Assembly: GCA_902777325.1 (NCBI GenBank)
Contig: CACYTH010000003.1
Span: 124,001-188,000, forward strand
Direction of reading: 5' to 3'
DNA: 64,000 nucleotides
Source of the DNA: an uncultured Coriobacteriaceae bacterium
GTDB taxonomy: Bacteria > Actinomycetota > Coriobacteriia > Coriobacteriales > Atopobiaceae
Shown here: piece after piece, positions 6,511 through 47,273 of the stretch
How the letters are laid out: every line of letters begins with the position of its first letter
How positions within the stretch are numbered: position 1 is the stretch's first letter
Notes under the pieces: generated by a model
What the model saw: only the letters and a program-made list of their open reading frames with translations
Databases searched by the model: none
Told to the model about the DNA's origin: nothing
Translations under genes and position numbers: made by a program

Positions 6511-7500
6511 ATGCAATACACCACCATCGGGTGCACGGACATCGAGGTCAGCCGCTTCTGTCTGGGCTGCATGGGCTTTGGCGAGGTCCGCGAGGGTGCC
6601 CTGCACAAGTGGACGCTGGGCCCTGACGACACGCGCGCCATCATGAGACAGGCGCTTGACGCTGGTATCAACTTCTTTGACACGGCCATGGCCTACTCCT
6701 TTGGCACGAGCGAGGAGTACGTGGGCCAGGCCCTGCGCGAGCTTGCCCCGCGCGACGAGTGGGTCATTGCCACCAAGTACAGCCCGCGGCCTGCAGCGCA
6801 GGTTGATCCGGCCGTGAGCGGTGCCGAGTGGATCCGCACTTGCATCGACAACAGCCTGCGCCGCCTGGGCGTGGAGACCATCGACCTGTACTACATGCAC
6901 AGCTGGGACTACGCCACGCCGGTCGAGGAGTCGCTCGAGGCGCTGAACGAGGCCGTGACCGCCGGCAAGGTGCGTGCGCTGGGCGTCTCCAACTGCCATC
7001 CGTATCAGCTGGCTCGTGCCAACGACATCGCCGCGGCACACGGCTGGGCCCGCTTCGAGGCCATCCAGAGCCACATGAACCTCATCTTCCGCGAGGACGA
7101 GCGCGAGCTGCTGCAGCTCTGCGCCGAGGACGGCATCTCCACCATGCCGTACAGTGCGCTTGCCGCTGGCCGTCTCGCCCGCAAGCCTGGCGAGACAAGC
7201 AAGCGTCTTGAGATGGACACCTTCGCAAAGGGCAAGTACGACGCCACGGCCGAGCAGGACAACGTGATCGTGGAGCGTGTGGCCGAGGTGGCCGAGCGTC
7301 TGGGCACGTCGATGACGGCCGTCTCGCTCGCGTGGCTGCTCACCAAGGTTACGAGCCCAGTGGTTGGTGCCACCAAGCCGCACCATCTGGAGGGCCCGGC
7401 TGCGGCGGCGGACCTTGTGCTCTCGGCCGAGGACATCGCCTACCTGGAGGAGCCGTACGTTCCGCACGCGCTTGTGGGCGTGATGGCGCAGAGGCGCTAG
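6511..7500 (+). CDS. Aldo/keto reductase
   Basis: A 329-residue aldo/keto reductase with an (alpha/beta)8 barrel, an NADPH-dependent carbonyl reductase. The catalytic tetrad is visible: Asp in FFDTAMAYSFG with its Tyr, Lys in ATKYS, and His in YYMHSWD. The C-terminal GATKPHHL segment fits the cofactor phosphate loop. It resembles the YajO/IolS-type group. The ATG at 6511 is preceded by GGAG at 6501; an in-frame ATG at 6487 lies inside poor context. It is probably monocistronic between two terminators. The physiological substrate cannot be told from sequence. Confidence 0.88.
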   Translation: MQYTTIGCTDIEVSRFCLGCMGFGEVREGALHKWTLGPDDTRAIMRQALDAGINFFDTAMAYSFGTSEEYVGQALRELAPRDEWVIATKYSPRPAAQVDPAVSGAEWIRTCIDNSLRRLGVETIDLYYMHSWDYATPVEESLEALNEAVTAGKVRALGVSNCHPYQLARANDIAAAHGWARFEAIQSHMNLIFREDERELLQLCAEDGISTMPYSALAAGRLARKPGETSKRLEMDTFAKGKYDATAEQDNVIVERVAEVAERLGTSMTAVSLAWLLTKVTSPVVGATKPHHLEGPAAAADLVLSAEDIAYLEEPYVPHALVGVMAQRR

Positions 7501-39535: not shown

Positions 39536-41134
<1,599 letters not shown>

Positions 41135-43124: not shown

Positions 43125-43314
43125 CGATCTCCCTCTTCCCTCCGTGTTCCGCGCCCTATTGTGCCACGAGTGATGGTGAGGAAGGTTGCATGCAATGTTG
43201 CTACGACATCTTGGCGCGAAGGCGTACTGGCTTGCGCAGTTTGTTGGTCTGCGCTCAGCCTAACTCCCGCTTTGCATGTATACAATGGGAATGTTTGTTT
43301 TCGGGAGGGGTGCC

Positions 43315-44901
43315 ATGGCCATCAAAACATCCGACATCGTCCTTGACCTTGAGGGAATAGATAGTGCGTCAGAGGCGGTCGAGGAGTTTCTCGCCAAATC
43401 GAAGCTCGATAGGCGCAGCCAGCTCTCGGCTCGCTTGACCTTCGAGAATGCCCTGCTCAACCTGCGCGACACCTTTGGGGACGGCTTTCCCGCGCAACTT
43501 GTGGTGGGCAGCCGCCTTGGCAAGCCGCTCCTCGTGGTCAAGGTGCGGGGCAGGCGCTTTGACCCGCGCACTTTGGGCGACGAGAGTGCCTGGGAGCACT
43601 CGCTCATGGAGGCCGCCGGCCTGAGGCCGTCGTATGCCTACCGTGGCGGGCACAACATCATTTCCATCTCCTGCCCCCGGCCTCCGATGGGGTCTGCCCT
43701 AAAGGCGGCCATCGCCATCGTCCTTGGACTGGCGCTCTCGCGGGCGGGATTCCTTTTGCCTGACTCTACGCGCGAGTACATCCTCACAGGTCTCGTCAAA
43801 CCGCTCTTTGACATCTACGTCAAGATGCTTGCGGGCGTGGCAGGTCCCATGGTGTTTCTCTCGGTGGCCTGCGGCATCGCCGGCATCGGCGACATGGTCG
43901 CGCTGGGGCGCAGTGGCAAGGCGATCATGAGGCGACACTTTGTGGTGAACCTCTTTGGCGCGCTCCTGGCCCTTGTCGTAGGCATTCCGATCTATCGGCT
44001 GACGTACGGATCGACTGTGGGGGAGAGTGGTGCGCTCCTCAGCATAACGAACCTCATCTTGGGGATGTTTCCCACCAACTTTGTCGAGCCTATCGTGGAG
44101 AGCAACACCTTGCAGCTCTCGGTGCTCTCGGTCGCCGTAGGAATAGCTGCGCTGGCGCTGGGCGACCTCACCGAGCACGTGCGCAAGCTCCTGCAGGAGC
44201 TCAACATGCTCGTCCAGTTCCTCATGGAGCAGCTCTGCCGACTCCTGCCCGCGTTCATCGTGGTCATGATGGTCTCGCAGTCCTGGTCGGGCACCATGGG
44301 CGCCCTGCTGGCTTCGTGGTTCCCCATCCTTTTGATCTCCTGCACCATGTTGGTCTTTGTGGTTGGGCAGCTGCTCTTTGTGGCGATGCGCTGCAAGGTA
44401 CCTCCCGTGCGAATCCTGCGCGCGATCTCGCCCGCCATGGTCATCGCATGCATCACCGCGTCCTCCTCGGCTGCGTTTGGGTCGATGCTCTCCATTTGCC
44501 AGGACGACCTCGGAATCGACGAGGGACAGGCGTCATTTGGCGTTCCCCTGGGCATGGTGCTCTGCAAGCCCATGCCCACCATCCAACTGATCATCATGAT
44601 GCTGTACTGCGCGCAGGCCTATGGCGTGGCTGCCGACACTCTCTGGTATGTGCGGATGGGCATCACGTGCCTGCTCTATGCGATCGCGATTCCTCCCGTG
44701 CCAGGCGGCACGCTCGCCTGCTATGGCATCATGCTCGGGAGCCTCGGCATCCCGCTCGACGCCATTGCGGTGGTCACGGCGCTCGACCTGCTGCTGGACA
44801 ACTTCTGCTCGGCCGGCAACGTCGCCACGGTGATGCTGGGGATCCTGACGGCGGCCAGCTCGCTTGGCGCGGTCGACCACGAGCGGTTGAGCAAGTCGTA
44901 G
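43315..44901 (+). CDS. DAACS-family symporter with extra N-terminal domain
   Basis: A 528-residue protein. Residues about 130-515 form a dicarboxylate/amino acid:cation symporter with eight or more helices and the serine-rich ITASSSAAFGS of this family. The next motif, usually NMDG, reads VLCKPMP, and DLLLDNFCSAGNV replaces DRxxDMxRTxxNV, so ion or substrate preference may differ. Residues 1-115 form a soluble domain with RLTFENALLNLRDTFG resembling the N-box of GHKL ATPases, not present in standard symporters. GGGAGGGGTGCC precedes the ATG at 43315. Coupling of a nucleotide-sensing domain to uptake is a tempting inference. Confidence 0.8.
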   Translation: MAIKTSDIVLDLEGIDSASEAVEEFLAKSKLDRRSQLSARLTFENALLNLRDTFGDGFPAQLVVGSRLGKPLLVVKVRGRRFDPRTLGDESAWEHSLMEAAGLRPSYAYRGGHNIISISCPRPPMGSALKAAIAIVLGLALSRAGFLLPDSTREYILTGLVKPLFDIYVKMLAGVAGPMVFLSVACGIAGIGDMVALGRSGKAIMRRHFVVNLFGALLALVVGIPIYRLTYGSTVGESGALLSITNLILGMFPTNFVEPIVESNTLQLSVLSVAVGIAALALGDLTEHVRKLLQELNMLVQFLMEQLCRLLPAFIVVMMVSQSWSGTMGALLASWFPILLISCTMLVFVVGQLLFVAMRCKVPPVRILRAISPAMVIACITASSSAAFGSMLSICQDDLGIDEGQASFGVPLGMVLCKPMPTIQLIIMMLYCAQAYGVAADTLWYVRMGITCLLYAIAIPPVPGGTLACYGIMLGSLGIPLDAIAVVTALDLLLDNFCSAGNVATVMLGILTAASSLGAVDHERLSKS

Positions 44902-45027
44902 ATACTGTTCGGGGATGCCCTTCTGCCAACGTACCGCGATAGAATGATTACTTAGACCCGCCAGAACCGAGGTGGCATAAGGGTCCATTAGGGCAAATGA
45001 GGTGCCGACGAGTCAAAGGAGTCGAGC

Positions 45028-46440
45028 GTGAACGATCTGGCACAGGCGTATCGCCAGTGGATTTTGGCGCAGCAGATTGAGGGCTGCACGCTTTCGGAGA
45101 CCGACAAGGGCAACATCGTTTTGGAGAACGACCTCGTCAAGGGCTGGGTCAACTTCTACGACATCGATGGTTCGACCATCGTCGAGCTGCGCCTCGAGCG
45201 CGTGCTCGATGGCGAGCCCGCCTTCTTCCTCCACTTCGAGCTGGAGGATCTGGTACGTGCCCAGAACCTGTTTGGCGAGATGGCCCAGGTGGTCGACGAG
45301 GTCACGCATTGCGAGGTGCGCCACGTGCTGCTGTGCTGCACCTGTGGCGTGACTACGACCTTCTTCTCCAACAAGCTCAACGAGCTTGCCCAGGGCTTTG
45401 GTGTCGACTACGACTTTACGGCGCAGCCCATCGAGTCGGCCAAGAAGAACGGTGCGCAGTATGCTGCGGTGCTGCTGGCGCCACAGGTCGGCCACCAGCG
45501 CAAGGAGGTGGCCGAGGCCCTTCCCAACGTGCCGGTCATCGAGCTTCCGGGCAAGATCTTTGGTGCCTATGATGCCGCGGCGGCGCTGCGCCTTGTGGTT
45601 GACGCGCTCTCCGGCGCTCGCTCCGCTCCATCGGAGGACACGCTCATGCCGGCGCGCGACTACGACAAGACTAAACGCGTGCTTGCCCTGAGCTACATCC
45701 ATCGCGAGGACGAGCCGACGCTGAGCTACCTCGTGCTCGACCATGGCGAGTTCGCCCTGTCGGGCATGCTGGTGCGCCGCAGCTTTACCATCGACACCCT
45801 CAAGGACTTGGCAGCCACGCTGCGCGTCGAGGGGTGGAAGACCTCGGAGTTCGATGCCATCGGCATTGCCGTGCCGGGCATCGTGGACAACGGCGTGGTC
45901 ATCAGCCACCGCAACGGCGAGGAGGTGCGCTTTGACCTGGCCGCCAAGCTCGCCGAGATCTGGCACACGCAGGTCTACGTCGACTACAACGCGTGCGCCG
46001 CGGCCGTGGGCTGCTACGTAAGCCAGGACAAGTACGATGACGTGGTGTTTCATGCGCAGGCCATCGGCGTTGCCGATGGCGAGCAGGGCTATGTGGTTGG
46101 TGGCGAGCCGCTTGTCGGCCGCGGTGGTCGCTCCGGGCATGTGGGGCCGCTCGCTCAGGGCTATGCGCTGGGCATGGGGCTTGACGATGCCGCGTGGCGC
46201 GTGAACGGCATGCGCGAGCTGGTTGCCCGCTACCTCTCCAACGTCATCTGCACGCTTGCCCCGCAGGCGATCTTCGTGTGGTGCGACCTGCTCCCCGACA
46301 TGGACGAGCTGCGCGAGGAGCTGCTCAAGACCCTGCCCATCGCGTCGATTCCCGAGCTGATAGACGTGGCCGACTACGATGGCTGCGTGCTGACGGGCGA
46401 GCTGTCGCTGTGCCTGAGGAGGCTCGCGCACAAGGGCTGA
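45028..46440 (+). CDS. PTS EIIB-like domain fused to a ROK-like kinase domain
   Basis: A 470-residue protein with three parts. Residues 1-95 are an unidentified alpha/beta domain. Residues about 97-190 match lactose/cellobiose PTS EIIB, with the phosphorylatable Cys104 in LLCCTCGVTT and LLAPQVGHQ further on. Residues about 215-470 resemble ROK proteins: GIAVPGIVDNG, GRGGRSGHVGPL and LAPQAIFVWCD. The ROK catalytic Asp position reads Asn321 (YNACAAAVG) and there is no CxCGxxGC zinc motif, so it is probably a sensor rather than a kinase. GTG start with AAAGGAG. A role as a PTS-phosphorylation-linked regulator is an inference. Confidence 0.75.
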   Translation: MNDLAQAYRQWILAQQIEGCTLSETDKGNIVLENDLVKGWVNFYDIDGSTIVELRLERVLDGEPAFFLHFELEDLVRAQNLFGEMAQVVDEVTHCEVRHVLLCCTCGVTTTFFSNKLNELAQGFGVDYDFTAQPIESAKKNGAQYAAVLLAPQVGHQRKEVAEALPNVPVIELPGKIFGAYDAAAALRLVVDALSGARSAPSEDTLMPARDYDKTKRVLALSYIHREDEPTLSYLVLDHGEFALSGMLVRRSFTIDTLKDLAATLRVEGWKTSEFDAIGIAVPGIVDNGVVISHRNGEEVRFDLAAKLAEIWHTQVYVDYNACAAAVGCYVSQDKYDDVVFHAQAIGVADGEQGYVVGGEPLVGRGGRSGHVGPLAQGYALGMGLDDAAWRVNGMRELVARYLSNVICTLAPQAIFVWCDLLPDMDELREELLKTLPIASIPELIDVADYDGCVLTGELSLCLRRLAHKG

Positions 46441-46598: not shown

Positions 46599-47273
46599 CT
46601 ACGCGGTGACGATGTAGGGCTGGATGGCACCGGCGACGCCAGGGATCGGCATGGTCTGCAGCCAGATGCGGCCGGGGCCGGTGAGTACGGTGTTGAAGAG
46701 GCCCTCGCCACCGAGCAGCTTGTTCTTGATGCCCTTGACCTGCTGGATGTCGATGGAGACGGAGCTCTCGAAGCCTGCGACATAGCCAGTGTCGATGATC
46801 ATCTGCTGGCCGGGCTTGAGCTGGTACTCGATCAGCTCGCCGTCGATCTCGGCGAAGGCGACGCCGTGACCGGAGAGGCGCTGCATGATGAAGCCCTCGC
46901 CGCCAAACAGGCCGGCGCCGAACTTCTTGTTGAAGAAGATATCCAGGTTCACGGTCTCCTCGGAGGCGAGGAAGGCGCTCTTCTGCAGGATCCACTCCTG
47001 GCCGCGCTCAAGGGTGATGGGGACGATCTTGCCCGGGAAGCTGGAGCCAAAGGTGATCATGCCCGGGCCACCCTGTGCGGTGTAGATGTTCTGGAACATG
47101 CTCTCGCCGGAGAAGGCCTTGGAGAACATCTTGCCGACGCCGCCGCCCTTTGTTTCCATCTGCATGTTGGGGGTCATCCAGGTCATGGAGCCCTTCTCGG
47201 TGATCATCCTCTCGCCGGACTGGAGCTGGCAGATGACAACAGGAAAGTTACCGCCGCGAATCTCGTACTGCAT
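46599..47273 (-). CDS. TIGR00266/AIM24 family protein
   Basis: A 224-residue protein of the TIGR00266/AIM24 family, which has a TRAP-like beta fold of repeated Gly-rich turns. GERMITEKGSMTWMTPN near residue 20 and SGHGVAFAEIDGELIEYQL near residue 135 are characteristic. Function is unknown in bacteria; the yeast homologue AIM24 is mitochondrial. No membrane helix or signal peptide is present. GGAGGACATT precedes the ATG. It is convergent with the PTS/ROK fusion gene. Confidence 0.85.
   Translation of the reverse strand: MQYEIRGGNFPVVICQLQSGERMITEKGSMTWMTPNMQMETKGGGVGKMFSKAFSGESMFQNIYTAQGGPGMITFGSSFPGKIVPITLERGQEWILQKSAFLASEETVNLDIFFNKKFGAGLFGGEGFIMQRLSGHGVAFAEIDGELIEYQLKPGQQMIIDTGYVAGFESSVSIDIQQVKGIKNKLLGGEGLFNTVLTGPGRIWLQTMPIPGVAGAIQPYIVTA

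Follow-up and report, generated by a model that had tools for sequence, protein, structure and literature searches.

The window, by which we mean the whole stretch of 64,000 nucleotides that was analysed, contains a gene whose product joins a lactose/cellobiose-type EIIB domain to a ROK-fold domain. The features at this locus are as follows.

43276 to 44901, plus strand: sodium:dicarboxylate symporter gene with an N-terminal extension of about 130 aa, 126 bases upstream of the EIIB-ROK gene (Pfam SDF, E = 9.6e-51)
45015 to 45021, plus strand: Shine-Dalgarno-like AAAGGAG, 6 bases 5' of the GTG start (direct sequence reading)
45028 to 46440, plus strand: gene for a protein of 470 aa made up of an N-terminal domain, an EIIB domain and a putative pseudo-ROK domain (ORF list, Pfam, AlphaFold model)
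45028 to 45312, plus strand: N-terminal domain, residues 1-95, helix-five strands-helix (AlphaFold models, alignment)
45316 to 45618, plus strand: EIIB domain of the lactose/cellobiose type, residues 97-197 (Pfam PTS_IIB, PDB 1h9c, model)
45337 to 45339, plus strand: codon of Cys104, the predicted phosphocysteine (aligned with EIIB Cys10)
45673 to 46437, plus strand: ROK-fold domain, a putative pseudokinase, residues 216-470 (Pfam ROK, Foldseek to NanK 6jdc)
45988 to 45990, plus strand: codon of Asn321, where ROK kinases carry the catalytic Asp (alignment to canonical ROK proteins that the same genome encodes)

Re-reading of the sequence returned the same open reading frame, coordinates and frame as the original prediction. 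The start codon at 45028 is GTG, and the motif ahead of it is a good candidate for a ribosome-binding site. The symporter gene, which also adjoins the family gene in the closest relative when neighbourhoods are compared, is a neighbour and a mere candidate for a place in the EIIB-ROK system; an RsbW-like N-terminus was suspected in it by eye, and Pfam returned nothing. Just 3' of the EIIB-ROK gene, on the opposite strand, lies a gene for an AIM24-family protein (46599 to 47273). The window also holds a glycoside hydrolase family 1 gene (39896 to 41134) that lacks its N-terminus, the open frame beginning at profile position 70, and that is perhaps frameshifted or a pseudogene. No PTS gene adjoins the EIIB-ROK gene and, as had been stated originally, no EIIC stands beside it; a full Pfam EIIC match comes no closer within the window than about 16.4 to 17.3 kb, roughly 28 kb off.

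All three domains are supported by the AlphaFold model of the window protein (mean pLDDT 87, pTM 0.83), for which the input alignment comprised 51 sequences from the window and from genome-contig relatives. The middle part, described originally as a lactose/cellobiose EIIB with its Cys104, matches Pfam PTS_IIB (PF02302, residues 100-172, E = 7e-7, 30.2 bits versus a cut-off of 23.6), and in the PDB profile alignment Cys104 takes the position of the active-site Cys10 of the chitobiose EIIB 1h9c (E = 1.5e-9). Structure prediction, on which this assignment had been staked beforehand, likewise folds the middle part as an EIIB: residues 98-195 form an EIIB-like beta-alpha series, followed near 196-204 by a linker of low confidence. 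The C-terminal part matches Pfam ROK (PF00480, residues 270-373, E = 6.5e-8, 32.9 bits versus a cut-off of 22.9), and its modelled fold (216-470) matches N-acetylmannosamine kinases in Foldseek, with NanK 6jdc as the best (E = 8e-14); the Mlc/EIIB complex 3bp8 is also among the Foldseek matches of the model, via its ROK chain.

The N-terminal domain reaches a pLDDT of 91 when modelled separately, and E53 and L81 are invariant in it across alignment A3. In agreement with its first description as a domain of unfamiliar kind, it finds no Pfam match, no PDB profile match below 0.3 and no Foldseek match below E = 0.16, and a PUR/PC4-like likeness was set aside as weak (Foldseek, E = 0.16 or worse). 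Across Pfam, PDB profiles and Foldseek, the window protein shows neither a DNA-binding or recognised output domain nor an N-terminal HTH of the Mlc/NagC type, and Pfam matches no PRD domain up to E = 10.

All searches together gathered 122 distinct full-length family genes, every one from Atopobiaceae or closely titled MAGs. The genome from which the window comes holds five full-length members, with the other four 35-41% identical to the window protein; members occur in every same-genus genome searched, and two more genera of the same bacterial family appear among the first 60 relatives. Four genera, all within one bacterial family, were positive in a 398-genome sample of the class, the window's own genome was the sole positive in a 396-genome sample of the phylum, and the viral contigs searched held no relative. 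Among the best 80 of 159 relatives, the genome-contig loci are titled Atopobiaceae, Coriobacteriaceae, Coriobacteriales or uncultured actinobacterium, with ruminant guts as the source of many. The arrangement had been held to differ from that of standard PTS regulators; compared across genomes, the domain order defines a conserved multi-copy family, and a search of the available literature for an EIIB-ROK fusion found no paper describing it. The EIIB-ROK proteins apparently constitute a large, lineage-restricted, undescribed family in one group of gut bacteria. As a separate observation, members in L097 and L098 (on a contig shared with L054; G017:C87) are mirror-image copies with identical scores and look like an inverted-duplication assembly artefact.

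Throughout this family, the EIIB site is kept and the kinase motifs are lost. Cys104 is Cys in 121 of the 121 aligned sequences that have a residue there (from the set of 122), Thr109 and Gln153 (of the EIIB 'PQ') are equally invariant (121/121), and the adjacent Cys103 is common but gives way to Ser, Val or Thr in 16 relatives. Position 321, that of the catalytic Asp, is occupied by Asn (88), Asp (27), Ser (5) or Gly (2) in the 122 sequences. Alignment with eight canonical ROK proteins from the same genome, which retain DxGGT, places Asn321 at the D of 'NDAN', bearing out the originally reported replacement of the catalytic residue; the zinc motif CxCG, likewise reported as absent, is found in 0/122, as are DxGGT and GTGxG, a single pattern match lying misplaced elsewhere in the domain. 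A search for an alternative kinase site, envisaged as a way to overturn this picture, found none with an ATP loop. Because Cys104 is present in 121/121 and the ROK kinase motifs in none, we conclude that selection maintains the EIIB site and, judged from these alignments, that the ROK part is a pseudokinase across the whole family. Positions 320 and 371, which we take to be residues that usually hold the sugar in ROK kinases, are Asn in 110/122 and Glu in 96/122, respectively. Tyr320 and His371 replace them in the window clade, and sugar binding by the ROK part of this clade is therefore doubtful.

A sister genus carries the same parts in split form. One cluster of genus g49 (L199) encodes an N-domain-EIIB protein of 207 aa, a HAD phosphatase and a ROK protein (L199:1183-2172) with an HTH-like N-terminus, the HTH being assigned by eye and Pfam giving ROK only. 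In the collected set, the nearest relatives of this ROK protein belong to the fused family (E = 1.5e-14), with a profile score of 62.9 bits, compared with 33.8 for the highest-scoring canonical ROK. In G364 this set of genes is found at two contig ends, arranged in a way that would fit the L199 cluster, the join itself not being seen. Genera g7 and g6 possess the ROK protein with no adjoining EIIB, so linkage to an EIIB is not universal. The L199 ROK protein and the unfused N-domain-EIIB protein may be an ancestor or cousin of the fusion.

With respect to gene neighbourhoods, a same-strand upstream gene lies within 250 bases of 80 of the 122 family genes, and 72 of these 80 were scanned alongside 72 control genes taken from the same loci. 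GH1 (7), MupG (7), HAD Hydrolase_3 (6), GH13 (5) and STAS (4) exceed the control (at most 1 each), and RpiR (2) and EIIA-Glc type (1) were also found (control at most 1 each), in counts that are not independent events because orthologues repeat. Inspection for conserved neighbours, proposed at the outset, shows that neighbourhoods differ widely between paralogues and that many copies look monocistronic. Sugar-phosphate genes (GH1, MupG, HAD phosphatases) are frequent among the neighbours, and HPr, EIIA or EIIC occur at times. A calcineurin-like phosphatase domain is added N-terminally in one clade, and a subset of this clade lies 3' of EIIA-Lac and MupG with an EIIC further upstream, so that the absence of an adjoining EIIC, true of the window gene, does not hold as a general rule. 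HPr is directly upstream of one phosphatase-fused and one unfused member in L107, and an EIIA-Glc type gene is located 139 bases upstream of the family gene in L087. Some loci of the window clade (L056, L057, L060 and L061) carry a STAS gene 36-99 bases upstream of the family gene; this STAS gene is missing at the window gene and its closest relative, where the dicarboxylate symporter gene is found instead. Near a phosphatase-fusion paralogue in L036 we also observe two copies of the start of a stand-alone EIIB (L036:3622-3966 and 7073-7345) with a similar internal loss in both, which may reflect either a true deletion or an error of assembly; L071 has Ns at that place and L100 an intact copy.

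The closest known parallel in kind to such a protein is offered by Mlc and the glucose transporter EIIB of E. coli. In that pair, the activity of a ROK-fold protein not used as a kinase depends on whether an EIIB is phosphorylated, as we propose for this family, and the repressor Mlc is held (sequestered) by dephosphorylated EIICB-Glc (PMC3901232). Mlc, however, has a DNA-binding domain and is a protein separate from the EIIB, which is membrane-bound and belongs to the glucose type; in the window protein the two are fused, the EIIB belongs to the lactose/cellobiose type and a DNA-binding domain is not seen. The fold, the active-site Cys with its loop and the invariant Gln of the 'PQ' motif are those of lactose/cellobiose EIIBs (PF02302; chitobiose EIIB 1h9c), but the EIIB of this family is fused between an unmatched domain and a ROK domain, usually with no adjacent EIIC. 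Similarly, the family resembles ROK sugar kinases (NanK, NagK, glucokinase) in fold by Foldseek and in its Pfam match, yet lacks the ATP loops, the zinc motif and, in most members, the catalytic Asp. Regulators of the PRD type that contain EIIB-like domains (MtlR, LicR and the Mga/AtxA group; compare PMC8560693) also place a regulatory EIIB inside a larger soluble protein, whereas the window protein has a ROK domain and no PRD or HTH match.

On balance, we favour the reading that the window protein is one of a set of lineage-specific soluble PTS-linked regulators, a sensor of PTS phosphorylation whose ROK module is non-catalytic, and the EIIB-ROK protein probably acts as a nutrient sensor and not as an enzyme. 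In the mechanism that we infer, which covers phosphotransfer, EIIB-ROK coupling, any ligand and the output, EIIA~P would hand its phosphoryl group to Cys104 at low PTS sugar flux, and Cys104 would give it up at high flux. The phosphorylation state of the EIIB would then alter its contact with the adjoining ROK-fold module, which would itself phosphorylate nothing and might serve as a scaffold or as a ligand- or partner-binding part, as in ROK repressors such as Mlc. The output would pass through a partner or the N-terminal domain: the fused phosphatase domain is a possible output in one sister clade, and the window clade has a candidate partner in the STAS protein (anti-sigma-factor-antagonist type) whose gene immediately precedes the family gene in several relatives. 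The sensor originally envisaged was to read PTS phosphorylation together with sugar; its PTS half fits the conservation and the neighbourhoods, and its sugar half is weakened by Tyr320 and His371.

The main rival to a sensor is a role in transport, which we consider unlikely, in which the protein would be a soluble EIIB subunit, extended by a tail of ROK origin, and would phosphorylate sugars via orphan cellobiose-type EIICs of the genome. The conserved EIIB active-site residues are compatible with it, and the window's genome does have four cellobiose-type EIIC loci (C12, C3 twice, C6) beside which neither an EIIB nor an EIIA lies, and the stand-alone EIIBs found there number just two or three, while genus g1 is rich in lacE-type EIICs (mostly 6 per genome). 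We compared EIIC counts with family-gene counts, since a clean EIIC:EIIB ratio was not obtained because PF02302 counts over Atopobiaceae are mixed with fructose-type EIIBs. Genomes of genus g46 carry at least 4 (G207, G391) or at least 5 (G328) family genes versus one lacE-type EIIC each, and these numbers therefore do not fit a one-to-one supply of EIIBs. In addition, the L100 EIIC cluster that holds a phosphatase-fusion paralogue has its own intact EIIB, and transport needs neither a conserved 250-residue ROK tail nor a phosphatase fusion. Less probable still is a stress or developmental partner-switching circuit (STAS, RsbW-like HATPase) in which the EIIB would be mainly a docking or redox site and not a phosphate relay. 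The upstream STAS genes of the window clade, a HATPase_c_2 gene that is also present in L060 and the common Cys103 beside Cys104 would suit such a circuit, but the STAS association is confined to that one clade and fails at the window and its closest relative, and Cys103 is replaced in the 16 relatives mentioned above while Cys104 is constant. That the ROK part has shifted its active site and still works as a sugar kinase is highly improbable, since the ATP phosphate-binding loops DxGGT and GTGxG are missing in 122/122, despite the Asp at position 321 in 27 relatives and the common Glu371.

For the proposed sensor, we tentatively suggest a wider role: the family may represent one-protein PTS sensors, expanded in some Atopobiaceae genera only, in which EIIB phosphorylation would control a ROK pseudokinase in cis, with outputs that may be specific to the clade (phosphatase domain, STAS partner switching, single-sugar operons). 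ROK proteins and EIIBs are known to interact as separate proteins, as in Mlc; in this family the two are fused, stripped of kinase chemistry and present in several copies per genome in gut bacteria. To our knowledge, PTS regulation in the gut bacteria that carry this family has been little studied, and a single-chain soluble protein would offer a direct test object for the coupling between EIIB and ROK.
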